Below, one piece after another: positions 38,727 to 55,832 of a stretch of 64,000 bases of DNA (position 1 is the first letter of the stretch; each line of letters begins with the position of its first letter). Below the pieces are notes generated by a model. That model had not been told where the DNA came from, did no database searches, and worked only from the letters and a program-made list of their open reading frames with translations. Source of the stretch: Seonamhaeicola sp. (GTDB lineage: Bacteria; Bacteroidota; Bacteroidia; Flavobacteriales; Flavobacteriaceae); the NCBI RefSeq assembly GCF_028281565.1, contig NZ_JANQJQ010000003.1:1-64000 (forward strand), given 5' to 3'. The position numbers were made by a program, and so were the translations under genes.

Positions 38727-38770
38727 GTAAAGTCGTCCAAAAACTATTATTGGTTTGCCGACGGCTTTAC
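38727..38770 (+). promoter_or_regulatory. Inverted repeat upstream of the excisionase-like gene
   Basis: GTAAAGTCGTC (38727-38737) pairs with GACGGCTTTAC (38760-38770) with one G-U pair, followed by a T-rich tract. A shorter hairpin CTCCCACCTTGGGAG lies at about 38652. Either may be an RteC or HTH-protein operator or a terminator-attenuator. Confidence 0.45.
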
Positions 38771-38788
38771 TTTTTAAAACCAAAATGA

Positions 38789-39067: not shown

Positions 39068-39075
39068 GTATTGTT

Positions 39076-40274: not shown

Positions 40275-40293
40275 ATTTTTGAATACTTCTAAT

Positions 40294-40319
40294 AAATAGT
40301 ATCATATATGATACTATTT
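40294..40319. promoter_or_regulatory. Perfect palindromic operator upstream of AbiEii
   Basis: A 26-bp perfect palindrome containing AGTATCATATATGATACT. The 22-bp core (ATAGTATC to GATACTAT) occurs identically at 42134-42155 beyond the start of the opposing AbiEi gene. It lies about 100 bases before the AbiEii start codon. Confidence 0.8.
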
Positions 40320-40416
40320 TCAAAGGTAATGGTTTTTTTTTGAATTGTCAAGTTTTTAGAAAGTATTATTCCTTATATATTTGTTGTTACCTATTTTAAA
40401 TCTTTCCCGCAGAATT

Positions 40417-41259
40417 ATGATTGAAAAAATTAAAATGTTAACCTTACGAGCTTTGGTTAGTGACGAGAAACTCATGTATGGTTTAGTTTTGAAGGGAGGC
40501 AATGCACTTCAGTTGGCTTATAACATAACGGATAGGGCTTCTTTGGATATTGATTTTTCTATTGATGGAGATTTTAGTGAAGAGGAATTTCAACGTCTCA
40601 AAGGTATTTTCCATAGCTTACTTAACACCGAATTCAATAAGCATGATTTGGTAGTCTTCGATGTAGAGTTCCTTGAAAAACCAAAACAAAATAAGATTAA
40701 ACAATGGAAAGGATATGTTTTAAAATTTAAAACTATTGATTTTAATAAATATGATCCGGACGATGAAGATGTTAATAGGCGTTTGGCCCATGTTATTTAT
40801 AATAATAATTCCACTAAATTTCAAGTAGAAATAAGTAGTTATGAATACACAGATCCCAAAAAAATAGTTGAAGTAGAAGGAGCGGTGTTCTTTGTTTATA
40901 CGCCAGAAATGATTGTTTTTGAAAAGATACGCGCACTATGTCAGTCAATGCCTGAGTATAAAACAGTTATACCAACGGCAAGACAGAAGGGACGTGCACG
41001 CGATTTTTATGATATATGGAACCTCAGTAGTTCTTTTCAAATAGATTTTACACTTCAATCCAACAAAATAATGTTTCAAGAGATTTTTGAAGCAAAGCTC
41101 GTGCCTATTTCCTTTGTAGAACTTTTGCCAAAATATAGGGATTTTCAAAAAGAAGATTGGAATAGTGTTGTTGATACCCTCTCAGGAGTTGAGGTTGAAG
41201 AATTTGATTTTTATTTTGATTACTTGATGGAGCGCATAGCACTGATTAAAAGCCAATAG
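40417..41259 (+). CDS. AbiEii/AbiGii-type nucleotidyltransferase toxin
   Basis: Nucleotidyltransferase-fold toxin of type IV toxin-antitoxin systems: LVLKGGNALQLAY near residue 26 is followed by SLDIDFS with the catalytic Asp44-x-Asp46, and ARDFYDIWNLS later marks the family. AbiEii toxins (for example MenT) add nucleotides to tRNA acceptor ends. The preferred start is ATG 40417; an upstream TTG at 40381 is possible but unlikely. The gene is convergent with, and overlaps by 14 bases at the 3' end, the AbiEi antitoxin at 41246-42121, unlike the usual co-directional operon. Confidence 0.85.
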   Translation: MIEKIKMLTLRALVSDEKLMYGLVLKGGNALQLAYNITDRASLDIDFSIDGDFSEEEFQRLKGIFHSLLNTEFNKHDLVVFDVEFLEKPKQNKIKQWKGYVLKFKTIDFNKYDPDDEDVNRRLAHVIYNNNSTKFQVEISSYEYTDPKKIVEVEGAVFFVYTPEMIVFEKIRALCQSMPEYKTVIPTARQKGRARDFYDIWNLSSSFQIDFTLQSNKIMFQEIFEAKLVPISFVELLPKYRDFQKEDWNSVVDTLSGVEVEEFDFYFDYLMERIALIKSQ

Positions 41260-42121
41260 GGTAATATACTTTCCAGCTTTTATCAAGTTTTTTTGTTGTC
41301 AGCCCGTAGGTTAAATAAAAGTTGATATTGCTTACCTGGTCAAGAAAAAATTTTAGTTCACTTTTTTGGTAGCCGGATTTTTCTAGATAGAAACCTACTA
41401 ACTGGTGGTATGGGTATATGTAGTCCAGCTTATTTAGATAATCATTAAGTCTCGGTAAGCTTATTTTTCCCGCAGCCCTTTGGTAAGCCTCGAGAACCTG
41501 GAAAACACCTCCTGAATAAGCCGGCCTTACAGTTATATCAATTAAGGTCCTTTCTAAATCGGTTAATGGGAAACGCCCCCTATTTATGATTCCTACTTTA
41601 ATCGAATTATGCTTTTTATGGAGGAATGTATATCTTATTTTATCTTTTCTCGAAACAAAGACATCTGTGGACATGCGCTGTTTATTAGAAAAGGCACTAT
41701 CTACAGCTTCTTGTTCCAAAATAATGTCGCCTTTTGTTTGAAAAACCTCATATTTGTCGATACTGACATATATCGTTTTGGGTATTTGAAGGGTCAGGTT
41801 ATGAATCTGCATTGCCGTATAATTACTCAGGTACCCTCCCTTTCTTATTGTTAATGCTATGTCATAATTAACGGCGTCCTCTTTAGTCCATATTTTTTTT
41901 TCGGAATTATCATAGCCGTCAAGACCATTCACATATAAAATCCTGCTTTCTTGTAAAAAATTAATAAAATCATAAGAATTGCGGTAAGCTGCTATTTTCC
42001 AGTCCTCACGATTTTCATCAAAAATCTCTCTTAAGTCATTTAAGGTATAAGCATACTCATTTTTTAAGTGAAAGAATCTTTCAATATAATCTATGGCTCG
42101 TTTAAATGATTCAATTTTCAT
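41246..42121 (-). CDS. AbiEi-family antitoxin
   Basis: 291 residues. The N-terminal region (YAYTLNDLREIFDENREDWKIAAYRNSYDFINFL) forms a winged helix, and the conserved body includes GYLSNYTAMQIHNLTLQIPKTIYVS and GIINRGRFPLTDLERTLIDITVRPAYSGG, the AbiEi signature. AbiEi proteins neutralise the toxin without direct binding and repress their own promoter through the N-terminal helix. Here the same palindrome precedes both this gene and the toxin, so it likely represses both. Convergent orientation is unusual. Confidence 0.85.
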   Translation of the reverse strand: MKIESFKRAIDYIERFFHLKNEYAYTLNDLREIFDENREDWKIAAYRNSYDFINFLQESRILYVNGLDGYDNSEKKIWTKEDAVNYDIALTIRKGGYLSNYTAMQIHNLTLQIPKTIYVSIDKYEVFQTKGDIILEQEAVDSAFSNKQRMSTDVFVSRKDKIRYTFLHKKHNSIKVGIINRGRFPLTDLERTLIDITVRPAYSGGVFQVLEAYQRAAGKISLPRLNDYLNKLDYIYPYHQLVGFYLEKSGYQKSELKFFLDQVSNINFYLTYGLTTKKLDKSWKVYYPIGF

Positions 42122-42131
42122 AATGTTTTTT

Positions 42132-42157
42132 ATATAGTATCATATATGATACTATAT
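42132..42157. promoter_or_regulatory. Perfect palindromic operator upstream of AbiEi
   Basis: A 26-bp perfect palindrome with the same core as 40296-40317, 11 bases upstream of the AbiEi start (42121, minus strand). The remaining 290 bases up to TraE at 42448 are AT-rich and presumably hold the tra promoter; nothing else was recognised. Confidence 0.8.
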
Positions 42158-42447
42158 TGTAAAGATAGTGATTTTTTTTCAATTTGTCAAGGGGTAAGCT
42201 TATTTGGATTTTTCAATAGTTAAATTCTAAACTTGATGTTTTCTGGCACCCGTCAACCAAATAAATTTTAGGTTATCCACAAACACCTGCAAATCCAAAA
42301 TATAATTTGGTCACAATTTACATCAATGATTAGCAAGTGTCATTAGTTTTTATTTTATTAACAATTACCTGTGAATCAGTTAGATGAAGGATAATTGGGC
42401 GTATTTTTCATATATCAAAATCAAGTAATTTTTAAATCGATTTCAAT

Positions 42448-42735
42448 ATGAAAAAATCACTATTTACAACCGTATTTTCACTTCTTATTTCTAATACCAT
42501 TTTTGCACAGATTGGAGGTATTGAAGATTCCGTTAACGATGTTTCAGATACTATTAGAGCCATCTTCCCAATTATATTGGGAGTCATCTTCTTAATAGGC
42601 TTCCTCTTCAATGCCGGACACTTCTTTGGTGAAAATGCGGACCTCAAAAAAGGGATAACCCGTGTATTGGTCTTTGTACTTATTGCAGGAGCAGTAGTGG
42701 GCATCTTTACATATCTCATTGGCATCGTGGTGTAA
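42448..42735 (+). CDS. traE: TraE, DUF4134 VirB2-like pilin
   Basis: 95 residues: signal peptide (MKKSLFTTVFSLLISNTIFAQ) followed by two hydrophobic segments (IFPIILGVIFLIGFLFNAGHFF; VLVFVLIAGAVVGIFTYLIGIV). This is the two-helix pilin layout of TraE/DUF4134 proteins in CTnDOT-type systems. It would form the conjugative pilus or channel. It is the first gene of the tra operon and ends one base before TraF begins. Confidence 0.85.
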   Translation: MKKSLFTTVFSLLISNTIFAQIGGIEDSVNDVSDTIRAIFPIILGVIFLIGFLFNAGHFFGENADLKKGITRVLVFVLIAGAVVGIFTYLIGIVV

Positions 42736-42736
42736 C

Positions 42737-43021
42737 ATGAAACGCTATAAGGTCTATAAAGATATCCGAAAACGAGCGGTGATTATGGGGTTGCCCATTT
42801 CACTGTTCGCTTTGATGATGACTTCGGTCATAGGGTCGTTGCTTTTCATCATCTTTTCCTTTAACCTTTTGGTAATCATTTTGGTTTTCATCTTTAATGG
42901 AGGTCTTTATACAGCACTGACACAACTGTCCAAGCACTCCGCCTTATTGCATTTCAAAAAAGTATTCCCAACCACTATCTGTAACAAACGAGAAAGTCAA
43001 CTCCAATATGAAGAAAATTAA
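42737..43021 (+). CDS. traF: TraF, DUF4133 VirB3-like protein
   Basis: 94 residues from ATG 42737 (MKRYKVYKDIRKRAVIMGLPISLF), with two adjacent membrane helices and a basic N-terminus as in VirB3/DUF4133. An upstream ATG at 42719 would overlap traE and is less likely. It anchors the VirB4-like ATPase, whose gene begins 14 bases before this stop. Confidence 0.85.
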   Translation: MKRYKVYKDIRKRAVIMGLPISLFALMMTSVIGSLLFIIFSFNLLVIILVFIFNGGLYTALTQLSKHSALLHFKKVFPTTICNKRESQLQYEEN

Positions 43022-45413
43022 TCTATCGGCATACCACCCTATTTTAAACATAGAAAAGCATATCATTTTCGCCAGTAACGGCAATGTGGTACTATGTTAT
43101 AAAGCCGATTTACCTGAAATATATTCCCTGTCGGAAAAGGATTTTGAAGATATTCACGGCACTTGGTTTCAGGCCTTCAAATCCCTACCAACAAGCACCG
43201 TAATCCATAAACAGGACATCTACAAAAAGAACCTCTATGAGGCGGATAATCTTCCGAATGAAAGCTTTTTGGAAAAGGCAACCTATCGTCATTTTAAGGG
43301 ACGGGAATGCATAACCCATCAATCTTACTTGTATTTCACGCTGCCATTGGGTAAGGCTTTGAACACTTCAAAATTCACCAATCCATTTCGCAAGACAGAA
43401 AAGGGTATTCATAAACAATTGGACCATAATGTCCAGGAGTTTATTACTTCGGTAAATGATGCGGTTTCATTTATCAATAACAGCCGCAGGGTGTCCCTGA
43501 GACAATTAAATGAGAACGAAATTTTAGAGCTTACGAGTGTCTACTTCAATGGTTTTAATGAAGGTTTAGATACGGATATTCAATTGAAAAAGTCAACGAT
43601 TGAAATTGGGGAAAACCATTTTGACGTGCTGGCAGTAAATAGCGAACTCTGTTTTGGTGATATGGTCCAAAGCAGTAAGACCAATGACAAATTCACATCC
43701 GATGATTTTGAATTCCATCAGGGCTTTATTGATGGATTGGGATTGAACCTAAATGAAAATCATATTATCAACCAAATCATTTACCTCGATGACAAACACA
43801 AATGGCGAAAATTACTGGACAAAAAAATTGAAGAACTTAACAAAAGTTCAAACTTCGGAACGCAGAACAAGGTCATTCAAAAGAAGATTGAGGCCATTGT
43901 TGCTAAGATTAATGAAGACGATAGTTCAAGAATTATACGTGGGCATCTCAACATTGTTTTCTGGTGTCCGGAAATCCGACAGCTAAAAAATATTGCCTCG
44001 AAGATTAAGGCCGAATATAAGGAGCTGGACATCGTGCCATATTACCCAAAAGGAGAAGAACGTAAGCACTATTTTCTAAATTCTTATTGTTGTTTTAGCT
44101 CCAATTTCTCCAATGAAGATTTGTACGTCACCGATTTAAAACATGCTTTGTGCTTATACATCAACAATACAAATTACTTGTCAGACGCCACTGGCGTCAT
44201 TTTCAATGACAGGCAATACAATATTCCAGTTTTAAAGGATGTTTGGGACGAGCAAAAGAAACGTATCAAGGCCAGGAACTTTGCCATTTTTGCCCCTACT
44301 GGTGAAGGCAAATCCTTTTTAGCGAACAACATATTTCGTCAGTATTTTGAGCAACAAGTACGACTGGTCATTATCGATTTGGGAGGCTCGTATTCCAAGT
44401 TTGCCAAGCTCTATCCCGACAACCATATTATTTTACGATATGAGCAGGGAAAGAATTTGGGCATCAATCCCTTCTACATTTCCAATGAAGCCGATTTGAC
44501 ACCCGAACGACTGGAAGACCTGGCCTTATTCTTGTTGGAACTATTGGCGGAAGGAAACCAGGTATCAAAAGCAAAAGAGGTAGCCATAAAGAAGGTGCTG
44601 CTTCATTACTACAAGCACATCCGTTTAAATCATTCACTGAATTCTTTATTTCAGTTTATAGACAATAAAAAAGATAGCCTCATAGAGGCTCTTAATATAA
44701 GGGAAGAGCATTTTAGCGTTTACAACTTCCTGCATATTCTTTCGGAATATGTGGATGATGGGTTGTACAGCTTCCTATTCAATGTGAGTGAAGACCAGAC
44801 TTATAAAATTGAGGATAAGCGAATGATTGTCTTTGAACTGGATGAAGTCAAGGACAACAAGGAGATTCTGTCTGTAATGCTGAAGCTCATCAAATCAGCT
44901 ATTCAACGAACCATTTGGCGAAATCGTTCCGAAAGGGGCATCATATTATTTGATGAGTTTGCCAAGCAACTCAAATTCGGGAATGTCCTTGAAAGTGTAG
45001 AGTTCTATTATCAGGCCATCCGTAAACAGAATGGCGCCATCGGCATCATCCTGCAATCCATTAATCAACTGCCAAACAACTCCACATCAGCAAGTATCCT
45101 TGAAAACACACAGGTCATTTATAGCCTTAGGAATGAAAAAGGTTATAAGGAGCTAAAGGAAAGACTAAACTTGTCGAGCCACGATCTTAATCAATTAAAG
45201 TCGATTCGCAACAATCTTACCGGTGATAGGAAGTACACAGAAATGTTTATCAAGATTGGGAAGGAGAGCAACATATTTCGTCTGGAGGTTCCCAAAGAAG
45301 TATATGCCGCTTATTTGACTGACGGCAAGGAAAGTGAGGCCATAATGGCCATTTATGAAAAAACAAATGATATGGAAGTTGCCATTAATACATTCGTAAA
45401 ACAACAGCCATAG
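43008..45413 (+). CDS. traG: TraG, VirB4-family conjugation ATPase
   Basis: 801 residues. The C-terminal motor has Walker A FAPTGEGKSFLANNIF (Lys435) and Walker B IILFDEFAKQLK (Asp649-Glu650), with SINQLPNNSTSASILENTQVIYSLRNEKGYKEL as the conserved late region. The N-terminal half is the VirB4 membrane-associated domain. It powers pilus assembly and DNA transfer at the inner membrane. In CTnDOT nomenclature TraG is VirB4 and not the coupling protein; no coupling protein was seen in this window. Confidence 0.9.
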   Translation: MKKINLSAYHPILNIEKHIIFASNGNVVLCYKADLPEIYSLSEKDFEDIHGTWFQAFKSLPTSTVIHKQDIYKKNLYEADNLPNESFLEKATYRHFKGRECITHQSYLYFTLPLGKALNTSKFTNPFRKTEKGIHKQLDHNVQEFITSVNDAVSFINNSRRVSLRQLNENEILELTSVYFNGFNEGLDTDIQLKKSTIEIGENHFDVLAVNSELCFGDMVQSSKTNDKFTSDDFEFHQGFIDGLGLNLNENHIINQIIYLDDKHKWRKLLDKKIEELNKSSNFGTQNKVIQKKIEAIVAKINEDDSSRIIRGHLNIVFWCPEIRQLKNIASKIKAEYKELDIVPYYPKGEERKHYFLNSYCCFSSNFSNEDLYVTDLKHALCLYINNTNYLSDATGVIFNDRQYNIPVLKDVWDEQKKRIKARNFAIFAPTGEGKSFLANNIFRQYFEQQVRLVIIDLGGSYSKFAKLYPDNHIILRYEQGKNLGINPFYISNEADLTPERLEDLALFLLELLAEGNQVSKAKEVAIKKVLLHYYKHIRLNHSLNSLFQFIDNKKDSLIEALNIREEHFSVYNFLHILSEYVDDGLYSFLFNVSEDQTYKIEDKRMIVFELDEVKDNKEILSVMLKLIKSAIQRTIWRNRSERGIILFDEFAKQLKFGNVLESVEFYYQAIRKQNGAIGIILQSINQLPNNSTSASILENTQVIYSLRNEKGYKELKERLNLSSHDLNQLKSIRNNLTGDRKYTEMFIKIGKESNIFRLEVPKEVYAAYLTDGKESEAIMAIYEKTNDMEVAINTFVKQQP

Positions 45414-45447
45414 GCTGATTTAATATTAACTTTTAAAACAATAACAA

Positions 45448-46029
45448 ATGAATCACAAAATCAAAACACTAGTATTCTTATTAGCCTTAGCACTTTCATC
45501 ATCCGGCCACATTGTGGCCCAGGGGATGCCTGTGTATGACAACACCAACTTTATCAGTTTTACAAAGTCGCTGATAGAATCCGCAAAACAGACGTCTCAA
45601 TTATTAAAGACAGTTGAATTTTTAAAAACCCAAAAAGAAAATATTGAACAGGTCAATAATGTCATAAGGCAACTTAAAGCGGTTCGTGACATTGGCCGTA
45701 ACAACCAACGGCTGTTTAACGTAGTACAGGAAGACCTGCGGGAGATACTTAATTCACCTTATATCAAGGCCGACGAAGTCAACCGTATTTCACAATCTTT
45801 CAATGACATTATCGAAAATTCATTGGACGGGCTCGATTATATAGAAGAGATCCTTTCAAGCAATAATCTAAAAATGACCGACGCCGAACGAGCCGAAGTT
45901 CTCAAAGATATGGAGATAAAATCCAAAGAAATGGTCGCTGAAATAGAATCAAAAACAAAACGGTATCGGGAGATCATTGCCTTTCGTGAAATGCAGTACA
46001 AAATCAACAACCGAGAAACTAATTATTAA
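45448..46029 (+). CDS. traI: TraI-like (DUF4141) periplasmic conjugation protein
   Basis: 193 residues: signal peptide (LVFLLALALSSSGHIVAQ) and a long coiled coil (QTSQLLKTVEFLKTQKENIEQVNNVIRQLKAVRDIG) with the VirB5-like layout of TraI/DUF4141. It is probably a minor pilin or adhesin-like tip component. Its stop overlaps the next gene's start (TAATG). Confidence 0.75.
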   Translation: MNHKIKTLVFLLALALSSSGHIVAQGMPVYDNTNFISFTKSLIESAKQTSQLLKTVEFLKTQKENIEQVNNVIRQLKAVRDIGRNNQRLFNVVQEDLREILNSPYIKADEVNRISQSFNDIIENSLDGLDYIEEILSSNNLKMTDAERAEVLKDMEIKSKEMVAEIESKTKRYREIIAFREMQYKINNRETNY

Positions 46030-46868
46030 TGGCCGGTATGTTTTTAGGAATTGGTTTAGAGTATGTGGATTCAGTTTTTCAAACCGTAAAGGATAGTGAT
46101 TTCTCACAATATACCATTACGGGAATGAAAACCCTGGCCATCTTATTCTTTCTGATCAATATCTTAAAAAAATACAATGAGGGGGTTGCCAAAAGCGATG
46201 GTTATACCTGGGGGCTGACACCAACCGAATTAGCGAAAAATTTTGCAGTTGTCATCCTGGTCATTTTTTCAACAGAGGTATTGGATGTCTTTGACACGAT
46301 TCTGGTCGCCATTGAAACCCAATATAGGGACACGGCTCCGGCACTCCTTCCGTTACAAATGCAGGACATCGATTTGGAACAGGAAGTGGGGGCCTTGGAA
46401 GCCGCCAAAAAAGCCATGGCCATGCTTTACGAAGCCCTCGTAACTCCTTTGTACGGGTTAAAGATGGTGGCCTTTATCATTGGGATATTTCTTTGGTTGT
46501 TGGATCTGTTTATTTACCCGCTATTTCTGGCAGAGCGTTACTTTTTGTTAGGTATTATGCAGGCCTTTTTTCCGCTGGTCATTAGCCTGGCCGTATTTGA
46601 AAAATTTCGTTCGTTGGCCTATAACTTCTTTAAGTTGTATGCCGGGGTATATATGCTGGTGCCGGCCTTTTTTCTGGTCAATGTGTTTGTCAATAATCTT
46701 TATGTAGAAGTAAATACCAATTTCTGGAGCAATCTATTCGGGACCGATTGGGGCAGTTCCTTTTTTGCCCCGTTGTTACAGCTTGGTTCCATAGGGTTGA
46801 TTGTTATTCTAAAATTCAAGCTCTATCGGCGTGCCACCTCATTTGTCTTTAAACTCTTTACCTCTTAG
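46029..46868 (+). CDS. traJ: TraJ, VirB6-like polytopic membrane protein
   Basis: 279 residues with about six membrane helices (TGMKTLAILFFLINILKKY; AKNFAVVILVIFSTEVLDVF; MVAFIIGIFLWLLDLFIYPLFLAERYFLLGIMQAFFPLVISLAVF; AGVYMLVPAFFLVNVFVNNL). The VirB6/TraJ layout is clear, and it forms the inner-membrane channel of the system. It is a little shorter than CTnDOT TraJ. The ATG overlaps the stop of the previous gene. Confidence 0.8.
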   Translation: MAGMFLGIGLEYVDSVFQTVKDSDFSQYTITGMKTLAILFFLINILKKYNEGVAKSDGYTWGLTPTELAKNFAVVILVIFSTEVLDVFDTILVAIETQYRDTAPALLPLQMQDIDLEQEVGALEAAKKAMAMLYEALVTPLYGLKMVAFIIGIFLWLLDLFIYPLFLAERYFLLGIMQAFFPLVISLAVFEKFRSLAYNFFKLYAGVYMLVPAFFLVNVFVNNLYVEVNTNFWSNLFGTDWGSSFFAPLLQLGSIGLIVILKFKLYRRATSFVFKLFTS

Positions 46869-46890
46869 GTCAGCAAGAACAATTATTAAT

Positions 46891-46910
46891 CCTGTCTGCG
46901 GCAAGGCAGG
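46891..46910. repeat. Short palindromic repeat between traJ and ssb
   Basis: CCTGTCTGCGGCAAGGCAGG forms a short hairpin (CCTGTC/GGCAGG) resembling the CCTGCC-type palindromes scattered through flavobacterial genomes. Its presence between two tra genes suggests an insertion site or processing signal. Confidence 0.4.
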
Positions 46911-46927
46911 CATCTAAAATTTTAATT

Positions 46928-47296
46928 ATGAACAAAATCAAAAATAAAGTCCAGCTCATCGGTAATGTAGGTGAAGATCCTATGATTACGGTTCTGGATA
47001 AGGAAAGAAAAAAAGCCCGTTTGTCATTAGCTACCAATGAGTACTTTAAAAATGCCGAAGGGGGAAAGGTAAAACGCACCTATTGGCATACTTTGGTGAC
47101 CTGGGGTAAGGTAGCAGACATCGTCGAGAAGCATGTGGTCAAGGGCAAGGAAATTGCCATTGAAGGGAAATTAGTGTCCCGCTCTTACGAAGATAAGGAT
47201 GGTAACAAAAGATATGTCACTGAAGTGATAGTGTCCGAAATTTTGCTTCTGGGAAGTATTGAAAAAAAACAGGACACAGATGATGACGCCCTATAA
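46928..47296 (+). CDS. ssb: Single-stranded DNA-binding protein
   Basis: 122 residues with a bacterial SSB OB-fold (MNKIKNKVQLIGNVGEDP; FKNAEGGKVKRTYWHTLVTWGKVADIVEKHVVKGKEIAIEGKLVSR). The C-terminal tail KKQDTDDDAL keeps an acidic tip but lacks the canonical DDDIPF. It is inserted between traJ and traK, not with the housekeeping SSB, and would protect transferred single-stranded DNA. Its 3' end overlaps traK. Confidence 0.9.
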   Translation: MNKIKNKVQLIGNVGEDPMITVLDKERKKARLSLATNEYFKNAEGGKVKRTYWHTLVTWGKVADIVEKHVVKGKEIAIEGKLVSRSYEDKDGNKRYVTEVIVSEILLLGSIEKKQDTDDDAL

Positions 47297-47906
47297 GAAT
47301 ATCTACAGCACCCTAAAGTTAAACCGTTTTATTGTACTTACTGTTGTTATAGGGGCTGTTATTACATGTGTTGTGTCTGTCTTGATGGTCATGAAATTAC
47401 ACAAGGAAACTGTCAATAATGCCTTTGTGGTCAATACTGATGGTCAGGTAATTCCATTAAAATTGGTGTCACAACAAGAAAATCTGGGTGTGGAAGTATT
47501 GGCGCATTTGAACCTTTTTCACACCTATTTCTATGACATTGATGCCAGTGACTATGAGAAGAATTTGGAAAAGGCCTTATGGTTGGGCAACAGTTCTGTA
47601 GATGCGCTTTACAGGCAAAAGAAAGCAGATGGTTTCTATAATCGCCTGATCCAATATTCATTGGTCCAAAAAGTCCTGAGTATAGAATCCAAAATAGAGA
47701 TTCAAAAAAAACCGTATCGTTTTGAGACCACCACCATTTTTGAAATCAACCGAGGGTCCATAGTTGATACTTATGAATTGACCACCTCGGGAAATATTAT
47801 CCATGTGGATAGAAACTTCCCCAGGAACACCCATGGGTTACTGATCACTAATTTTTTTGAAAACAAACTAAAAAAACTTGAAAACTATGAAGATAGAGAA
47901 GAATAA
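47280..47906 (+). CDS. traK: TraK, VirB8-like protein
   Basis: 208 residues from ATG 47280, which overlaps the ssb stop by 17 bases. One N-terminal membrane helix (FIVLTVVIGAVITCVVSVLMVMKL) is followed by a periplasmic VirB8/NTF2-like domain (NNAFVVNTDGQVIPLKLV; RFETTTIFEINRGSIVDTYELTTSGNII). It is a scaffold of the inner-membrane complex. Two adjacent ATGs (47280, 47283) are equivalent. Confidence 0.8.
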   Translation: MMTPYKNIYSTLKLNRFIVLTVVIGAVITCVVSVLMVMKLHKETVNNAFVVNTDGQVIPLKLVSQQENLGVEVLAHLNLFHTYFYDIDASDYEKNLEKALWLGNSSVDALYRQKKADGFYNRLIQYSLVQKVLSIESKIEIQKKPYRFETTTIFEINRGSIVDTYELTTSGNIIHVDRNFPRNTHGLLITNFFENKLKKLENYEDREE

Positions 47907-48816
47907 AGTCGTATTTGCCATGTTGTTGGTTTGTATAGTCCTGTTTATAGGGGGATACTCTATGTTGGTCATTGGAGAGGATGAAGAACCGCTTATTGAA
48001 AACAATCAGATCCCTATCCCCAAATTAGAAGAAGGACAAGAGGAATACAACTCTAAATTGGAAGCTTTAGACGACCTAAAAGAAGAACGGGAAACAACCG
48101 TGCCATCAGTTTATCCCGACCATATGATAGACGATAAGGGTTACTTCAATCCCCACTATATGGAATACGAAAAGCAGCGTATCATTGACAGTATATATAA
48201 CGAAGGGCGTATCAGTTATTCTGATAAAAGTTTTAGAAAACCTGAAGTTAAAATGGAGCCTAAGCAAATTCAAATAGATTCTGTGCCTAAAAGTGAAAAG
48301 AAAGAAGTAAGTGTAGATTCTAAAGAATTAGGGCTGGAGCACCAACTCTTTTTTGCATCGAATCCGTTGGAAAATGAAAATCTCACAACCCAGAAAACTG
48401 ACGCTTTCATTTATGTGCGGGTGGATGGTACTCAAACCGTGAGTAACAACCATCGCTTGGAAATGCGCCTTGTCAAAGATGCCATTATCAATGGTCATTC
48501 TTTGCTGAGAAATACACCTATTTATGGTTTTGTGAGTTTTAAGCCTAATCGAACCATTATAGAAATTGAAAACATCAATCACAGACCTGTTAAGTTAAAT
48601 GCTTTTGATCTTCAGGACGGAAGTGAAGGTATTTACATTGAAAACAGTTTTAGAGGTGAGGCCAGACAAGAAGTATTAGGTGATGTTGTAGATGATATCA
48701 ATATTGTAGGTGTTCCGCAAGTAAGTGGCATCAAAAGGATATTCCAACGAAACAACCAAACTATAAAAGTTACCATAACAGATAATTACCAACTCATCTT
48801 AAAACCTATACTATGA
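47887..48816 (+). CDS. traM: TraM, VirB10-like protein
   Basis: 309 residues from ATG 47887 (MKIEKNKVVFAMLLVCIVLFIGGYSMLVI), overlapping TraK by 20 bases. One membrane helix is followed by a Glu/Pro-rich linker and a C-terminal VirB10-like domain (FIYVRVDGTQTVSNNHRLEMRLVKDAIINGHSLLRNTPIYGFV). It spans the envelope and links the inner-membrane ATPase complex to the outer-membrane channel. The TTG start 9 bases earlier is less likely. Confidence 0.8.
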   Translation: MKIEKNKVVFAMLLVCIVLFIGGYSMLVIGEDEEPLIENNQIPIPKLEEGQEEYNSKLEALDDLKEERETTVPSVYPDHMIDDKGYFNPHYMEYEKQRIIDSIYNEGRISYSDKSFRKPEVKMEPKQIQIDSVPKSEKKEVSVDSKELGLEHQLFFASNPLENENLTTQKTDAFIYVRVDGTQTVSNNHRLEMRLVKDAIINGHSLLRNTPIYGFVSFKPNRTIIEIENINHRPVKLNAFDLQDGSEGIYIENSFRGEARQEVLGDVVDDINIVGVPQVSGIKRIFQRNNQTIKVTITDNYQLILKPIL

Positions 48817-49592
48817 AAACAATAATCTTTATTACAATCACTCTATTTACAAACTTTGTAGCTGCCCAAAAAACCTTAGATACTATCTATGCTAATGAAA
48901 AAAAGAACGTGGCTTTGTTTTTTCCTGAGCCCATTCGCCAGGGAATAACCGGAACTCCCAATTTTGTTTTTACCTACAATAGAGAAAAAGAACAATATTT
49001 TGGACTGTTACAAGCTACTCCCGGAGCAGAGAGTAATCTACTGACAGTGACCAAAACAGGAAAGGTCTATTCTTATATTTTGAAGTATAAAGAACAGCTG
49101 CCAAAGCTGAACTATTTCTTAACGGCTAAAGAAAGTATCGGAAATGAGCGACCTCCGGTTTTCAAACAGAAGCCAATAGTTAAACTATCTGAGAGAATAG
49201 ACTATTTCAAAAAATTCAGTCAACATTTGTTAAAATCAAAGTACATTTCCCTTGCTACTAAAAGAAAAAGAGGTGTCAAATTACAGTTACAAAAAATGGT
49301 TTACAACGCTTCTGAAGTTTATTTGGTATTAGAAATCAAGAACAGGTCTGAAATCGATTTTGAAGTAGATTGCCTCAATATCTATCGAGTAAACGGTAAC
49401 AAAAAACGTAAAGCTTCCTATCAAAAACTCTTTATTCAACCAAGATATAAGTATAACATGCCTAACCGGGTAGGGGTAGGAAAGTCACAAAGGCTTGTTT
49501 ATATATTGCCCAAGTTTGTATTAGGAGATAATGAAAAGTTGATGATTGAGATAGAGGAATCGAATGGAAATAGAAGGTTGGTTTTAAGGTAA
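48813..49592 (+). CDS. traN: TraN, DUF4138 VirB9-like protein
   Basis: 259 residues: signal peptide (MKTIIFITITLFTNFVAAQ), then the beta-rich DUF4138 domain (KTLDTIYANEKKNVALFFPEPIRQGITGTPNFVFTYNREKEQYFGLLQATPGAESNLLTVT) and a second beta domain (YLVLEIKNRSEIDFEVDCLNIYRV). It is the outer-membrane collar component. It overlaps TraM by 4 bases and is the last tra gene present; TraO, TraP and TraQ are missing. Confidence 0.85.
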   Translation: MKTIIFITITLFTNFVAAQKTLDTIYANEKKNVALFFPEPIRQGITGTPNFVFTYNREKEQYFGLLQATPGAESNLLTVTKTGKVYSYILKYKEQLPKLNYFLTAKESIGNERPPVFKQKPIVKLSERIDYFKKFSQHLLKSKYISLATKRKRGVKLQLQKMVYNASEVYLVLEIKNRSEIDFEVDCLNIYRVNGNKKRKASYQKLFIQPRYKYNMPNRVGVGKSQRLVYILPKFVLGDNEKLMIEIEESNGNRRLVLR

Positions 49593-49619
49593 GACTGACG
49601 GAAAATTGATTAAGCTTAG

Positions 49620-49646
49620 AGCGTCCTTATAAGGGCGCTTTTTTAT
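49620..49646 (+). terminator. Terminator after the tra operon
   Basis: AGCGTCC pairs with GGGCGCT (one G-U pair) and is followed by TTTTTTATTA. It marks the end of the tra transcript, 27 bases after traN. Confidence 0.75.
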
Positions 49647-50016: not shown

Positions 50017-50316
50017 ATGAAAAATAAATCCGATAAAAAAAATGCATCATTAGTTTTTGGGTTTGATGATATCATAAATGGTCAACCAATTATTGAAGAT
50101 GTAGATGAAAAACAAATAACAAATGATTCGATATTTAAAAACAAGGCTGTAAAGTATGGCGATGATGAAAATGAATCAAAAATTGGAGACAAAGTTAACA
50201 GTCAAAATAATAGTATTTCAGACCTTCTTTCTGACAGTATAATAATTAAGGAAGACTACAGTAAAAAATGGAATTTAGTTTTGAAAAAGGGCGTAAAAGG
50301 CATAATTAAAAAATAG
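50017..50316 (+). CDS. Small acidic protein, first gene of the SEDS-PBP operon
   Basis: 99 residues, not recognised. It is polar and acidic (FGFDDIINGQPIIEDVDEKQ), with no signal or membrane segment, and ends in a basic patch (WNLVLKKGVKGIIKK). It starts the operon and lies 4 bases before the DUF4407-transglutaminase gene. A regulatory or chaperone-like partner is possible but unsupported. Confidence 0.55.
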   Translation: MKNKSDKKNASLVFGFDDIINGQPIIEDVDEKQITNDSIFKNKAVKYGDDENESKIGDKVNSQNNSISDLLSDSIIIKEDYSKKWNLVLKKGVKGIIKK

Positions 50317-50320: not shown

Positions 50321-51919
50321 ATGAAAATTTATGAAATTCTAGGGCTAGATGAAAGGGCTTGGCACATGTCAAGTGTTAGCATAAAAAAAAGTTATAAAAA
50401 TATTGGCTATGCACTAATTTTCGTTTCAGTAATTAGCATAGCCACTGGTATAGAGATTACTTCACAATTTACTCACGCAGTTTCAATTTTGCTTTTTGGT
50501 GGTATTACATATGGTGGTATGGTTTTCTGTGTTGACTATTTTTTGGTTAGTGGAGAATCTACAAAATTTGGTTTTATTGTTAGGGCTATTTTCGGTTCTT
50601 CAAATGTAGTGTTAGGTGTCATAAGCTTCCTATTACTTATCAATACAAACGATATTAATAATTATAACCAATCAATTAATACTGACGAATTCAATTCATT
50701 AACCGATTCTTATCTTGAGGAAAAAGCAAAACGTTATAGTATAGCCAATGAGAAAGAAGCAATAATTGCTTCATATCATAAAGCAAACTGTGTTAAAGAA
50801 GCAAATATTGTATATGCTGGACCAAAGTATGATAAAATACATAACGCCTTTTGCGTCAAAGAAGAAGTTAAGCTAGCTGCCTTAAAAGAAGAATTGGACA
50901 AAGAAGAACTGGTTTTTAAAAAAATCTTTGAAGAAGAAAAAGCAATTTTAAATAATGTATCGCGTTTAGGGCTCTTTGAAAAAGTGGATATCCTATTAAA
51001 AAAAATAATCTTACCCAACCCTTATAAAATAGGATTTGCATTTATACTTTTTGTGTTTTTACTTGGAATGGAATTTACGGCTATGTTTTCAAAGCTTAAT
51101 ATTAAGAAAGACAATAGTTATAGTGCAATATGTGAAAAAATTGTTGAGGACGACATAAAAAAGGCGCATAAAAAATTAAGTGATGAGAATGAGATTAGTG
51201 AGATAGAATCAAATAATCACCAGAAACTAATCAAAACTGAAATGGAGATAGATTATAAGGTGATGGAGTTTTTAACTGTTGAACGCATGAAAACGGAATT
51301 CTTAAAAGCTAAAGCCGTTAGCCCTGAGCTCTGGACAGAAGATCTTACGGATAAATGTCATCAATATTTTGAAGAAAAAAGTTATAATCTAAGTGAGCAC
51401 TTAAAGCAGGTGTTTAATATTGAGGTGGACCATAATACTATGGATGAGAAGTATAAATCCCCTATTCAAAATAAAGCTAACATATTCAATGTTTTTTATT
51501 TAACGGTCCCCATGAAGCTATTAGCAGAAAACTTGTTATTTGATGCAAAAAAGGACTTGCCAACATTTATCGTGTTGTTATTTGATTGGTCCATTAAAAA
51601 CCTGTCTTACGACAAGGCTCACGACATATCGCACTATAAAAATGCTCGGGATGTTTTTAACACTAGGAGGGGTGTATGTGGTGAACTAACCATATTTTTC
51701 AATGCCATGTGTAAGTACGCCGCGATTAAGGCAGATTATGTTCATATTGATATTGATTTAAATGGCCAAAAAGTAAATCACGCATGTTCTGGAATTAACC
51801 TTAATGGTGATTACCAATTAATTGATGTTTCATACAGATTATTGAAAGGAGCTCACAGGCAATGGAATCCAATTTCTAATGAGCAGCTCATGCAAAATTT
51901 AGGACAATGGAACAGTTAA
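50321..51919 (+). CDS. DUF4407 membrane domain fused to a transglutaminase-like domain
   Basis: 532 residues. The N-terminal part resembles DUF4407: paired membrane helices (YALIFVSVISIATGIEI; VSILLFGGITYGGMVFCVDYFLV), another pair near residues 85-110 and a helix at about 238-258, with a long coiled segment between. The C-terminal part is a transglutaminase/papain-like domain with a complete triad: Cys453 (RRGVCGELT), His487 (VNHACSG) and Asp502 (QLIDVSYR). Such enzymes crosslink or cleave amide bonds. It lies directly upstream of the SEDS-PBP protein; the gene between them overlaps both, so translational coupling is likely. A role in envelope crosslinking is inferred. Confidence 0.75.
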   Translation: MKIYEILGLDERAWHMSSVSIKKSYKNIGYALIFVSVISIATGIEITSQFTHAVSILLFGGITYGGMVFCVDYFLVSGESTKFGFIVRAIFGSSNVVLGVISFLLLINTNDINNYNQSINTDEFNSLTDSYLEEKAKRYSIANEKEAIIASYHKANCVKEANIVYAGPKYDKIHNAFCVKEEVKLAALKEELDKEELVFKKIFEEEKAILNNVSRLGLFEKVDILLKKIILPNPYKIGFAFILFVFLLGMEFTAMFSKLNIKKDNSYSAICEKIVEDDIKKAHKKLSDENEISEIESNNHQKLIKTEMEIDYKVMEFLTVERMKTEFLKAKAVSPELWTEDLTDKCHQYFEEKSYNLSEHLKQVFNIEVDHNTMDEKYKSPIQNKANIFNVFYLTVPMKLLAENLLFDAKKDLPTFIVLLFDWSIKNLSYDKAHDISHYKNARDVFNTRRGVCGELTIFFNAMCKYAAIKADYVHIDIDLNGQKVNHACSGINLNGDYQLIDVSYRLLKGAHRQWNPISNEQLMQNLGQWNS

Positions 51920-52260
51920 CTAAATACAAAGAATTACTAAATAAATTCGATAATGAAATTGTTGATTGCTTAAATAATTTTGGCAATACGGTGGATATAA
52001 TCAACAAGTTTATACCTCCGATGATTGAGGCTGAGAAAAATTTGAAGCAATCAATAATAGAAAGTAAAAGGAGTATTCGGAGCAAGTCTGATATAAATGA
52101 ACTATCCAAATTCCATAGGCTAATTCAAAACTTATTGAATGATCTACTCCGAACGTCACCTTATAAGGAAAATTATAAAATTGTTGAAAAGTTGTGCTTT
52201 AATAACAATTTGAAATTAATGTTAAAGGTTAGCACATGTATAACAGGTATATTTTTATAG
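51907..52260 (+). CDS. Small helical protein between the transglutaminase and SEDS-PBP genes
   Basis: 117 residues, no recognised family. It is predicted helical (TKYKELLNKFDNEIVDCLNNFGNTVDIINKFIPPMIEAEKNLKQSI) with a basic middle (ESKRSIRSKSD). It overlaps the previous gene by 13 bases and the next by 25 bases, so it is tightly coupled to both. It has no membrane segment or signal. It may be an adaptor of the complex. Confidence 0.6.
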   Translation: MEQLTKYKELLNKFDNEIVDCLNNFGNTVDIINKFIPPMIEAEKNLKQSIIESKRSIRSKSDINELSKFHRLIQNLLNDLLRTSPYKENYKIVEKLCFNNNLKLMLKVSTCITGIFL

Positions 52261-55200
52261 TTGTAGCACTATTATCAATTATTTATGGTGGTTATGGCTT
52301 ATATGTTATTGGTCTAGATCATCCTTCCCCAACAATAATTCAAGCAGAGGGGCTTTTGCTGGATTCAAGTAAAACATACCACTTCAGTAATTATAAATCA
52401 TTAGACGCCATTACTGATTCTAATCCTGATGATATAATTTTAAATTATACGGATTCCAACTTATATCCAAATACTTTGGGTAAACTGTACTATCTAAATG
52501 GTCGCTGGTCGTTTGCAGCCCATAAATCAGTAAGAAACCCTTTAGTCAATGACTCCAACCCCTTTTTACCATTTATTAGGCAAATAAATAAGACAGATGG
52601 AGAATTTACATTCTATCGAGGTGAATCCGATGTTTCGGAAGAAAATTTATTTCAGGGGATTGTGGTTAATTTTCCAGCAGGCAAGAAAGCACATAGAAAG
52701 ACAATAAAGCTTAAGCGATCTAATGGGAAAATTGTCGTATTATGGAAAGATGATGGATTGGGAGTAAAATATATGTTGTCAAGAGGGAGAGATACCTTAG
52801 GTGTTAACTTTAATATGTCTCCAAATCAATATGGTAAGTATAATTATAACTATGACTTTGATAACACAACATCCCATAATGGTAAATACAAATTAATAAT
52901 AGAGTCGTCACAATGGAGAAATAGTTATAAAGTATATAATGACAATAATGTTAAGGTGCTGCAAGGAAGCCGTGTTTTTGAGCTGGGAAATATACTATTT
53001 ACAATAGATCAACGATTTTCTAATTGGAAAAAGATACTATTTATTTCCCACTACATACTATTAATTCTTAGTATACTTTTTTATTTTTTTGCACTTTTTA
53101 GAAACCAAAGGGAAGTTACTATTTCAAAAGAAATTTTTGGAGTTAATATTGAAATTCTTAGAGAGATTGTGAACCCAATTCATGAATCTTTAATTTGGTT
53201 ACGCTTTCTTATAACCTTATTGGCACTTTTAGGGATTCCTATTTTGATCACAGCATTTAACTACAATACTAATGGGGGTTTTTATTCTATCATAGTTGTA
53301 GTAGTGATTCACATCCTGCCACTTACTTTGGTTTTAATGCCTATTTCTAAAAGTGTCATAAAAACTATTTTAGCTAAAAAACGAATTAAGGCTACTGACT
53401 TAAAAATTAAGCCTCTTGTTAAATTGTTAAAGAACTCAAAAATTATAGTTGTTTTCCTTTTTGCTGCCCTAGTAGTATTTAAATATGGAAGCTATAATGA
53501 AAGAGTGTTAGGTATGCCTTCTTTGCATCTTCAAAAAATTGCCATAGTGATTTCGTTTTTTCTTTTTAATTCATCAGCCTTTGATATGCTATATAGCCGT
53601 ATAGATAAGGTTTTATTTAAATTAAGGAGGAAGGTGTACATACCTATGACTCAAAATTTATTTGTCATTTTTTACTCTTTGTTATTAACCATAGCCTCTT
53701 CGGATTTTGGAAGTTGCTTGTTCGTATTCATTTCAATATTACTGATTGAATTAATACTTAATGAATCTAAAATAAAAAAGGCATTCACTACATTATTTGT
53801 GGGGTTGGTAAGTATTTTTTTACTCATAAATGTCTTTGGGTTAAGTCAGCGCAAATTTTATCGGATTTATTATACTTATTTTCCTCCTGATAATAAATTT
53901 TATAATGGTTTCCATCAAGGAGATAAGGAATCCATAGCATATATATATACTAATTTAAAGAACTTAATAGAAAACCTTACAGGGTTTTGGAACGATTTAA
54001 AAATACCAAGACTTGCGCAATCTGTGGCCGATACAGATTATGCCTTTCATTGGAGTTTAATGTTGGGTGGTTTGTTTTTTATTGGCTTATTTTTACTAAT
54101 ACTGTTCTTTATATTATCTCATTTGTTTTTTGTTTTAAAAGTGACGACCACCAAGGTCAGGATTACGGAGACTGAAACTTATGATATTGCTAATACCAGT
54201 CAATATGGACGTGTTGTTTCTTTTTTAACTGCGATTACCTTAGTGCAATTTGTTTATCAAATTTTCACGAACCTCATGCTTCCTGGCGCCATCTTAACTG
54301 GGCAACCTCTAACATTTATAAGTGTTGGTGTTTATGATGCCATTTTCTTGGCTATTCTGTTTTTGCTACTGGACTCTATTTTTTATAACAAAAGTATTGG
54401 TCAAGAGTTTAGGGTGAAAGAAGCAAAGCGTAGTACACCCACATTAAGGCAGTTTAAATATAAATCAATTGCACTATCACAGGTCTTTTTCCTTTTCATA
54501 ATGCTCATGATTGTTATTAAGTCCATTATGATTGTTAGGTTTCAAAAAGATGTAATTATTATGGAAAGACGATTCCAAAAAACTAATGATTTTGATAATA
54601 ATGCAATCCCTTCTCAAAGTGATTATGGATCTCGACTGCGATACAATCAAGCAATAATTGAAAAGGCAAGTGAAATTTGTGTTAATGGTCTTTTGGATAT
54701 TGAGAATCAACAGAAATCTATTGTCCGTAATCTGCAATCTTTGTATTATGCTAAAAGGCGAATCAAAGAATATTATCCCAAAGTTTTTAAATTGGAAGCT
54801 GAAAACTTAAAAAAACGTTTGAGTTATTCTAGGTTTTTTGAATTTGGATCAACTTTAATTAGTGATCAAAATGGTCCTTTTGGAGAAGTCTTACTTAAAA
54901 AAATCTTTTCAAATGGAGCCGCTCAACTATATGCTGATAATATTTATTATAGCAATATTGATTGGGCCTCCAGTGCTGTAAATGTCGATCTTAATGCTGA
55001 GCTTAATAGGGTTTTGGAGGGGCACATTGAACAGAGGCTTAGTCGTTATAATATCGAAGGTAGCATTATAATTTTAGACAATTTGAATAAACGTGAAATA
55101 GTTAATGCGAACTATCCGTTTTTCGAGGAAACACCAATGGCTTTTAAATCTTATTTTGTGGGAAGCGTTAAAAAACCGTTATTGTTATATGCGCTTTTAG

Positions 55201-55832
55201 AATGCAATCAAGGAAATGGGGCCTTTACTTGTCTAAATTCGAGAGGCGAGGTGTCTGGCATCAATTATTGGATGCGATGGAGTGATAACAACATGTCCGC
55301 TGGGGTTTTGAAATATTTAACCGAAAATGAGCAATATGAGTTTTCACAGGTACTGCTCAATGATTTTAATTTGCCGTTTTATTCACCGAGCACATCCAAA
55401 TATAGCGATATGAGTTTTGATGAGTTAATGCGGATAAATAATTTGTCGACGTACCGGTCAATTGCAATTGGAGGAGTAGAGCCATATCAGCCTATACAGG
55501 TAGCGAAGTGGTTTAGCCATATAGCTGTGGATGCTTTTTCAAGTAATGAACCCTTAAAAGAGGCATTAAATTCTCCTTTAACAGGCACTGCTACTTCGAC
55601 TAAAAGAGCTTTAGAGAATCAAGGCCTGAACCCGATAGACTTCATTGCTAAAACAGGGACATTTGAAAAGGATGGTGTGAATATTTCTTCTAGTTTTCTT
55701 ATTTCTAATAATAGGTATACAACTTTAATTGTGCTTAATGGTGAACAACCTTCAAATTTAAGCCACAGGACTGCTAAGTATCTATTTAATGATAGTGTGC
55801 TACCATTGTTAATAGAGTACGGTGTTTTGTAA
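52236..55832 (+). CDS. SEDS glycosyltransferase-PBP transpeptidase fusion
   Basis: 1198 residues. An N-terminal membrane helix precedes an extracytoplasmic beta-rich domain (about 30-270). About 270-730 is polytopic with a SEDS (FtsW/RodA/SpoVE) signature: RLAQSVADTDYAFHWSLMLGG, where Asp601 aligns with the catalytic Asp of the HTDF motif, and TGQPLTFISVGVYDAIFLA as the later loop. About 850-1198 is a penicillin-binding transpeptidase domain with SxxK (Ser977-VK-Lys980), SxN (Ser1016-Asp-Asn1018) and KTG (Lys1139-Thr-Gly1141), all present. SEDS and class B PBPs are normally separate partners in peptidoglycan synthesis; here they are one polypeptide. It is the last gene of the operon, followed by a terminator. 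Confidence 0.85.
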   Translation: MYNRYIFIVVALLSIIYGGYGLYVIGLDHPSPTIIQAEGLLLDSSKTYHFSNYKSLDAITDSNPDDIILNYTDSNLYPNTLGKLYYLNGRWSFAAHKSVRNPLVNDSNPFLPFIRQINKTDGEFTFYRGESDVSEENLFQGIVVNFPAGKKAHRKTIKLKRSNGKIVVLWKDDGLGVKYMLSRGRDTLGVNFNMSPNQYGKYNYNYDFDNTTSHNGKYKLIIESSQWRNSYKVYNDNNVKVLQGSRVFELGNILFTIDQRFSNWKKILFISHYILLILSILFYFFALFRNQREVTISKEIFGVNIEILREIVNPIHESLIWLRFLITLLALLGIPILITAFNYNTNGGFYSIIVVVVIHILPLTLVLMPISKSVIKTILAKKRIKATDLKIKPLVKLLKNSKIIVVFLFAALVVFKYGSYNERVLGMPSLHLQKIAIVISFFLFNSSAFDMLYSRIDKVLFKLRRKVYIPMTQNLFVIFYSLLLTIASSDFGSCLFVFISILLIELILNESKIKKAFTTLFVGLVSIFLLINVFGLSQRKFYRIYYTYFPPDNKFYNGFHQGDKESIAYIYTNLKNLIENLTGFWNDLKIPRLAQSVADTDYAFHWSLMLGGLFFIGLFLLILFFILSHLFFVLKVTTTKVRITETETYDIANTSQYGRVVSFLTAITLVQFVYQIFTNLMLPGAILTGQPLTFISVGVYDAIFLAILFLLLDSIFYNKSIGQEFRVKEAKRSTPTLRQFKYKSIALSQVFFLFIMLMIVIKSIMIVRFQKDVIIMERRFQKTNDFDNNAIPSQSDYGSRLRYNQAIIEKASEICVNGLLDIENQQKSIVRNLQSLYYAKRRIKEYYPKVFKLEAENLKKRLSYSRFFEFGSTLISDQNGPFGEVLLKKIFSNGAAQLYADNIYYSNIDWASSAVNVDLNAELNRVLEGHIEQRLSRYNIEGSIIILDNLNKREIVNANYPFFEETPMAFKSYFVGSVKKPLLLYALLECNQGNGAFTCLNSRGEVSGINYWMRWSDNNMSAGVLKYLTENEQYEFSQVLLNDFNLPFYSPSTSKYSDMSFDELMRINNLSTYRSIAIGGVEPYQPIQVAKWFSHIAVDAFSSNEPLKEALNSPLTGTATSTKRALENQGLNPIDFIAKTGTFEKDGVNISSSFLISNNRYTTLIVLNGEQPSNLSHRTAKYLFNDSVLPLLIEYGVL

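Follow-up and report, generated by a model that had tools for sequence, protein, structure and literature searches.

How does a peptidoglycan synthase, which bacteria usually assemble from two proteins, come to be encoded as a single chain beside genes of apparently mobile DNA, and what would it do there? The question is raised by a 64,000-nucleotide stretch of Seonamhaeicola sp. (Flavobacteriaceae; contig NZ_JANQJQ010000003.1, positions 1 to 64,000), referred to here as the window. An earlier note had reported on its plus strand, at 52236-55832, an open reading frame (ORF) of 1198 residues joining an FtsW/RodA-like SEDS glycosyltransferase to a penicillin-binding protein (PBP). The ORF exists as claimed, in one unbroken frame from an ATG, and the reported motifs can be read at their positions: ADTDYAF (Asp601), S977-V-K-K980, S1016-D-N1018 and K1139-T-G. 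Judged by profile comparison, this gene, gene C, encodes a true, if divergent, SEDS protein joined to a class B PBP. The note had presented the fusion as an item standing alone. We find instead that it is the third gene of a compact conserved module, preceded by a DUF4407 membrane protein (gene A), which often bears a transglutaminase domain and which the note did not mention, and by a small protein (gene B). Our reading, to which we give a probability of about 0.68, is that the fusion functions as an accessory peptidoglycan synthase in one chain, carried on DNA that is probably mobile, placed under a dedicated regulator and used for wall synthesis or repair under envelope attack. We infer the enzyme activity, the DUF4407 regulation and the protective benefit from sequence. 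The parts of gene C are as follows (TM, transmembrane; aa, amino acids):

52236..55832, plus strand: gene C, SEDS-PBP fusion, 1198 aa, ATG start, a single uninterrupted frame
52251..52307, plus strand: first TM helix, aa 6-24, predicted to start inside (hydropathy)
52314..53021, plus strand: predicted extracytoplasmic beta domain, aa 27-262, in 6/6 relatives (AlphaFold2 confidence, pLDDT, 39.3; no Pfam match)
53034..53090, plus strand: second TM helix, aa 267-285 (hydropathy)
53187..54389, plus strand: SEDS domain, aa 318-718, ten TM helices inferred (hhalign and genome matches)
53862..53864, plus strand: Arg543, counterpart of E. coli RodA Arg210 (alignment)
54006..54038, plus strand: Pro591 to Asp601, counterparts of RodA Pro257 and catalytic Asp262 (alignment)
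54480..54536, plus strand: TM anchor of the PBP part, aa 749-767 (hydropathy)
54969..55829, plus strand: transpeptidase domain, aa 912-1198 (hhalign over aa 740-1198)
55164..55175, plus strand: SxxK, aa 977-980, Ser and Lys invariant in 6/6
55281..55289, plus strand: SxN, aa 1016-1018, Ser invariant, third residue Asn in 3 and Asp in 3 of 6
55650..55661, plus strand: KTGT, aa 1139-1142, invariant in 6/6

The note had proposed a Pfam search over the whole protein; neither PF01098 (SEDS) nor PF00905 (transpeptidase) appears at E up to 10. The sole Pfam or NCBIfam matches lie below cut-off (DUF3836, E 1.5; TIGR02896 spore_III_AF, 19 bits against a cut-off of 61.3). A phmmer search of the PDB with the single fusion sequence returned just two S-layer chains (E 0.06-0.07), and a four-sequence fusion profile gave 7 PDB matches up to E 10, none significant and none a SEDS protein; three of these were PBPs aligned in the PBP part (E 0.11, 0.87 and 1.4) and four were unrelated. 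Since curated hidden Markov models (HMMs) were silent, homology had to be demonstrated with profiles.

The SEDS part was therefore compared by hhalign with 11 SEDS proteins that had not been picked via the fusion, namely FtsW and RodA of the host, FtsW and RodA of E. coli, and seven SEDS proteins encoded by plasmid records that the host proteins had retrieved. This comparison gave 85.9% (E 5.2e-6; best of 40 shuffles 2.8%), and the whole fusion against the same set gave 81.3% (E 1.2e-5; best of 40 shuffles 1.9%). The SEDS-family match that the note had asked for within residues 270-730 is missed by curated HMMs and recovered by the unselected profile. The PBP part (aa 740-1198) matched FtsI and PBP2 of the host and E. 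coli at 96.3% (E 1.7e-9; best of 40 shuffles 0.5%) and is nearer to class B, with 90.9% against the host's own FtsI and PBP2 and 35.7% against its own class A proteins (two own-genome sequences each). Earlier SEDS sets had scored 95.2% (five proteins) and 96.0% (14 proteins), but 3 of the 5 and 12 of the 14 members had entered through the fusion profile and the comparisons were circular to that extent; we base the SEDS assignment on the 11-protein comparison together with the genome matches.

The genome matches come from three profile searches of genomes, in which 21 weak matches (5, 4 and 12) were observed at E 1e-3 to 1e-6 per genome. Sixteen are SEDS proteins, two are PBPs (L026 and L040) and three are unrelated (L013, L015 and L034); a few unrelated matches are expected by chance because the E-values are per genome and each search covered hundreds of genomes. 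The SEDS proteins align with the SEDS part of the profile and the two PBPs with its PBP part; in 18 of 18 the match overlaps the named SEDS or PBP ORF, fully in 13 and partly in L027, L028, L035, L037 and L041. Fifteen of the 16 matched SEDS genes sit between murD and murG on one strand, a position that identifies these 15 as FtsW; L039 shows neither gene in its short locus.

The catalytic residues of both domains are conserved across the family. Asp490, Arg543, Pro591, Asp601, Ser977, Lys980, Ser1016 and K1139-T-G-T are among just 85 invariant positions in the alignment of six fusion proteins. Mapping through the host RodA places Asp601 at Asp262 of E. coli RodA, Pro591 at Pro257 and Arg543 at Arg210, and Asp490 at the Asp of the PDxGT-like segment of RodA; Asp490, like Asp601, is invariant in 6/6 fusions. 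The note's placement of Asp601 at the SEDS catalytic position is borne out by this alignment. Replacing either Asp262 or Pro257 of E. coli RodA by Ala abolishes activity, and in simulations Arg210 touches lipid II (PMC10449877). The SEDS part is a divergent member of its family that probably remains active. With the unselected-reference profiles and the genome-wide matches, these invariant residues uphold the core of the note's proposal, an FtsW/RodA-like domain and a class B PBP in one chain.

The predicted layout would suit such an enzyme. By hydropathy, SEDS helices TM1-7 lie within residues 318-534 and TM8-10 extend up to residue 718, separated by a long loop (540-604) that holds Arg543, Pro591 and Asp601. 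Hydropathy detects nine of the ten SEDS helices in the window copy, TM5 (469-488) being under the threshold and seen only in a low-confidence model; otherwise the layout agrees with the helix pattern of the full-length model, itself of very low confidence. If the chain begins in the cytoplasm, loop 4 of the SEDS part would face the periplasm together with the beta domain and the PBP, as catalysis needs. Two identities were considered for the beta domain. A Tubby/scramblase-like kinship, suggested by a 198-aa protein (L047 8589-9185) that the N-terminal fusion profile matches at E 1.1e-6, was rejected (hhalign 5.0% vs 4.2% for the best of 40 shuffles), and an FHA identity was dropped since the motifs of that domain were not seen.

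Six full-length fusions of this family were found, the window copy included, 22-60% identical and with an identical order of parts: the window, L007 (a Flavobacteriaceae metagenome-assembled genome, MAG), L008 (a MAG labelled uncultured Chlorobiaceae), L018, L032 and L046. The five further copies come from other Bacteroidota, where the note had suggested looking, and their same single-chain architecture, with the unbroken frame in the window, shows that the fusion is not an assembly or sequencing error; the note had listed a sequencing error as something that would refute its proposal.

The fusion family is rare and patchy. Searches of genomes for relatives were confined to the phylum of the window; the draws overlap, so that their counts are not additive, and scoring in many genomes was limited to the top two candidates from a loose first pass. 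With the single sequence, a full-length relative was found in 1 other of 296 genomes drawn from the phylum (31% identity) and in 1 other of 395 genomes drawn from the order (33% identity). Profile searches of 395 genomes of the class added L018, another full-length protein, along with 5 weak matches and L019, a C-terminal fragment that lies where its contig ends; further profile searches returned the window, two known relatives and 4 weak matches in 395 genomes of the phylum; G967 and one further relative (L032) in 101 genomes; and G967, one further relative (L046) and 12 weak matches in 295 genomes. A draw of 86 genomes gave only an already-known relative and a draw of 10 only the fragment, and no fusion relative was present in the 6 other genomes of the genus that were searched. 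The L007 and L008 records came from a scan of all genome contigs with two peptide patterns; among genome contigs searched with the single fusion sequence, 72 candidate stretches held 0 relatives. No fusion relative was found in phage or plasmid collections (single-sequence searches) or in viral contigs, where profile searches gave 81 and 46 candidate stretches and 0 relatives.

In all six loci the fusion follows a DUF4407 protein and a small ORF in the same order, with gaps of -71 to +33 nucleotides (nt) for the starts used; the -71 nt gap in L018 hinges on a TTG start. In the window, the genes ahead of the fusion are as follows:

49618..49641, plus strand: intrinsic-terminator-like hairpin after traN, 10 pairs with a T tail, between the tra genes and the module
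50017..50316, plus strand: 99-aa ORF immediately upstream, of uncertain module membership, with no BLASTP relative among the neighbours in the other five loci
50321..51919, plus strand: gene A, DUF4407-type membrane protein, 532 aa, 4 predicted TM helices, Cys157 and Cys178 between TM3 and TM4 (Pfam, hydropathy, BLASTP)
51548..51835, plus strand: transglutaminase-like domain of gene A, presumed triad Cys453-His487-Asp502 (Pfam Transglut_core, E 3.9e-8)
51907..52260, plus strand: gene B, small protein, 117 aa, overlapping gene A by 13 nt and the fusion by 25 nt

The constant companions by BLASTP of neighbours are genes A and C. The DUF4407 model (PF14362) reaches just E 0.056 in gene A of the window and is above its cut-off in all five relatives. 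Four of the six copies (window, L007, L008 and L046) also have a transglutaminase-like domain, in which Cys, His and Asp motifs can be seen; this domain and the fixed linkage to a peptidoglycan synthase are what the module adds to known DUF4407 proteins. Gene A of L018 and L032 is tied to the others by one weak match (L018-L046, E 4e-4) and by the shared DUF4407 model. Gene B is kept by position in 6/6, with sequence similarity just between L018 and L032. Among four copies of gene A examined by hydropathy, four TM helices are predicted in the window, L007 and L018, and three exceed the threshold in L008. Cys157 and Cys178, which lie between TM3 and TM4, are kept in three aligned copies; the stretch that holds them is therefore probably extracytoplasmic, which would put the transglutaminase-like domain in the cytoplasm. 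Searches of open-licence literature turned up no account of a SEDS-PBP module on mobile DNA, nor of DUF4407 paired with a peptidoglycan synthase.

Does the host need a further synthase? Elsewhere in its genome the host encodes FtsW and FtsI (contig 30) and RodA and PBP2 (contig 20), and PF01098 matches these two contigs (FtsW, RodA) and not that of the window. It also has two further PBPs resembling class A; FtsI, PBP2 and the class A proteins were named by eye and neighbourhood. Because the host has its own FtsW, FtsI, RodA and PBP2, the fusion would be an accessory enzyme. One use for a spare is as a transferable substitute when the SEDS/class B PBP pairs of the host are blocked, for instance by beta-lactams, with DUF4407 as inducer and a logic like that of acquired low-affinity PBPs. 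A complete and divergent PBP active site, host pairs located elsewhere and the terminator-like site ahead of the module would all fit this use. However, low-affinity PBPs usually depend on a host polymerase, no beta-lactam sensor or beta-lactamase model of Pfam or NCBIfam matches the three module proteins, and the neighbourhoods show restriction, CRISPR or toxin-type genes with no resistance gene recognised, although no dedicated resistance search was made. We consider such an inhibitor bypass improbable.

Compared with RodA-PBP2 and FtsW-FtsI, the fusion shares the equivalents of Asp262, Pro257 and Arg210, the PBP anchor helix, the transpeptidase motifs and the inferred topology. It differs in being one chain, in its extra TM-beta-TM N-terminus and in being accessory and island-borne; it is also without the loop-2 arginines, the QPSE..K segment and SYGG, and is too divergent for Pfam. 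Class A PBPs also hold a polymerase and a transpeptidase in one chain, but their polymerase is GT51 whereas that of the fusion is SEDS. Natural single-ORF SEDS-PBP fusions exist, and PMC10449877 cites the Rhodococcus sp. RHA1 genome paper for them. The note's single chain is real as an architecture but not unprecedented; the likeness is that SEDS and PBP share one ORF. The same paper reports that an engineered E. coli RodA-PBP2 fusion has glycosyltransferase activity and binds Bocillin. It shares the order SEDS then PBP, so this topology can work; that construct and the B. subtilis SpoVE-SpoVD fusion, as described in PMC10449877, have an artificial linker and are without the N-terminal domain or partner genes.

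SEDS genes on plasmids are likewise carried by replicons able to move, though the fusion itself matches no plasmid record. A tblastn search with host FtsW matched 219 plasmid records, of which 67 are predicted mobilizable and 12 conjugative; some of the records are chromosome-sized. Among the 219 records, 55 are from Enterococcus and 13 from Rhodococcus, and the Rhodococcus plasmid FtsW that was examined (L053 3758-5233) is a protein of 491 aa and not a fusion. Since natural SEDS-PBP fusions and plasmid SEDS genes are already known, the fusion is not new in kind. What is new about it is its N-terminal domain, its partner genes and how far it has diverged.

How might the module work? Asp601 would be the catalytic base for polymerising lipid II in the SEDS part, and Ser977 the nucleophile with which the PBP part cross-links the strand. 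Covalent fusion would fix the 1:1 pairing that FtsW-FtsI and RodA-PBP2 reach by complex formation. SEDS-PBP pairs are usually activated by MreC or FtsQLB, and the TM-anchored beta domain together with the co-encoded DUF4407 protein may stand in for these activators. The DUF4407 protein would sense something at the membrane or in the periplasm and, in four copies, the signal could be relayed through the cytoplasmic transglutaminase-like (perhaps protease) domain and small protein B to turn wall synthesis on. The likeliest benefit would be emergency wall synthesis or repair, independent of the host, under envelope attack by phage, antagonists or lysis. The roles in septum synthesis, antagonism or defence that the note had offered as inference stay conjectural. 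A more specific proposal, which we advance tentatively and with well under even odds, is that the module is an undescribed mobile immune or repair system in which a DUF4407 sensor switches on the single-chain SEDS-PBP to seal or thicken the envelope when a phage or competitor attacks.

SEDS-PBP pairs are governed by separate activators; a naturally fused chain that carries its own extracytoplasmic domain and always has the same partner would offer a compact test case for the coordination of the two active sites. Should the module turn out to protect cells, it would mean that defence or repair devices on mobile DNA can include a machine that builds wall. The divergence of the fusion also shows that part of the SEDS superfamily escapes curated HMMs.

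Is the module itself on mobile DNA? The genes upstream in the window are conjugative-transposon-like:

37671..49592, plus strand: flanking conjugative-transposon-like genes RteC (37671), HTH_17 (38789), AbiEii (40381), AbiEi (41246, minus), TraG (43008), SSB (46928), TraK (47259), TraM (47878) and TraN (48813)

TraG and RteC score over cut-off, and TraK, TraM and TraN under their NCBIfam cut-offs. The note's description of apparent mobile DNA agrees with RteC, HTH_17 and TraG/K/M/N upstream; a full element is less apparent, as no tyrosine integrase is on the contig of the window (serine recombinases were not searched) and no relaxase was recognised among the ORFs looked at, with no relaxase-specific HMM search made. 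Mobile-element-type genes were recognised in five of six loci. A small helix-turn-helix (HTH) gene recurs by BLASTP in five (window, L007, L018, L032 and L046), and HTH_17 is found in the three that were scanned (window, L007 and L046). RteC is also in L018, L032 has two tyrosine recombinases and a DUF3408 gene, and L046 has a VapE/primase-like gene; the HTH gene is the sole sign in L007, and no such gene was recognised in L008. The module is probably carried by mobile DNA.

With the module directly after traN in the window, the fusion could build peptidoglycan locally around the conjugation apparatus. Yet the terminator-like site sets the module apart from the tra genes, as does a fall in GC from 0.36-0.41 (43-49 kb) to 0.28-0.35 (49-59 kb); terminator-like sites in the region number 6 vs a mean of 3.5 in shuffles, which is suggestive only. 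Moreover, no tra genes were recognised among the ORFs of the other five loci (by eye, partly by Pfam), and a role in transfer seems very unlikely.

Defence-type genes lie within about 10 kb of the module in all six loci. These are AbiE about 8-10 kb upstream in the window; a SmaI-type restriction enzyme and a DNA methylase directly downstream in L008; Cas9 about 5 kb downstream in L018; an nSTAND3-type ATPase about 1 kb upstream in L032 (24.2 bits vs a cut-off of 27.2); DUF2971 / PADLOC candidate PDC-S31 and a sub-cut-off HEPN downstream in L007; and HsdM about 6 kb downstream in L046. Such company would suit an abortive-infection effector, in which a phage signal leads the DUF4407/transglutaminase partner to free uncontrolled wall synthesis, draining lipid II or blocking growth. 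The neighbourhoods were counted without a control, however, and are a weak guide; no antitoxin-like gene was recognised, no PADLOC model matches the module (in PADLOC-DB 2.0.0, none of its three proteins matches a family at E up to 0.1) and we know of no peptidoglycan synthase that serves as an effector. An abortive role is unlikely, if a little less so than the inhibitor bypass.

Several observations weigh against an active, regulated and protective synthase. Neither domain is recognised by any curated HMM (Pfam at E up to 10, NCBIfam at E up to 1), and structure prediction is unusable (AlphaFold2 pLDDT 35.9 for the full length and 39.3 for the beta domain alone). With small reference sets, the SEDS part gave only 4.9% against host FtsW and RodA (best shuffle 2.5%), 2.9% against host FtsW alone (best shuffle 0.9%), 0.3% against host RodA alone (one shuffle got 13.2%) and 0.9% against E. 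coli FtsW and RodA (best shuffle 2.0%), and the PBP part gave 4.8% against E. coli FtsI and PBP2 alone (best shuffle 1.1%). As the signal appears with diverse sets and is lost with sets of one or two proteins, we take the kinship to be real but remote, visible only with enough diversity. In the chain itself, 4-5 additional residues lie between Pro591 and Asp601 relative to RodA, the four fusions aligned have neither the loop-2 arginines nor the QPSE..K segment nor SYGG, and SxN reads SDD in three of six. Given these missing hallmarks and the insertion, the SEDS part could handle its substrate differently or be weakened. On the side of regulation, the transglutaminase part is missing from two of the six gene A copies (L018 and L032), and to our knowledge no role has been assigned to DUF4407. 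As for protection, mobile elements commonly carry defence-type genes, and proximity to them, counted without a control, is a hint only.

The lost loop-2 residues and SYGG could also mean that the SEDS part is a dead scaffold and that the PBP part senses beta-lactams or muropeptides on behalf of DUF4407, whose topology resembles that of a transducer. But Asp601, Pro591, Arg543 and Asp490 are invariant across 22-60% identity, which would be unexpected for a dead enzyme, and we regard a degenerate sensor or decoy as slightly less probable still than the inhibitor bypass.

Other genes were observed around the module. In the window, 56103-58528, after the module, holds a 173-aa protein without matches, a sub-cut-off sigma-70-like gene (minus strand) and an HTH_26 protein whose C-terminal part is long and unassigned. 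A DUF3732/AAA_23 ATPase gene at 21966-23900 (minus strand) is outside the module region and may belong to another locus. The AbiEii/AbiEi-type pair (40381-42121) is convergent, and the repeats flanking it (40293-40346 and 42131-42184) share the palindromic core TAGTATCATATATGATACTA, possibly operator sites. In L032, a Prok-JAB (JAMM-type) gene (6041-6433) lies ahead of the transglutaminase-less DUF4407 gene and possibly provides an alternative protease part. A protein of ~198 aa without a Pfam match adjoins the module in L007 (7645-8244) and L046 (11461-12054; 29.6% identity, E 1.5e-5), on the upstream side in one locus and on the downstream side in the other. Finally, pairs of large receiver-domain-type proteins are found upstream of the module in L008 (2571-4358 and 4355-6412) and L046 (34-1854 and 3020-4957); the first members are 30% identical over 417 aa and the second match at E 0.004, suggesting a larger signalling cassette in one branch of the family.

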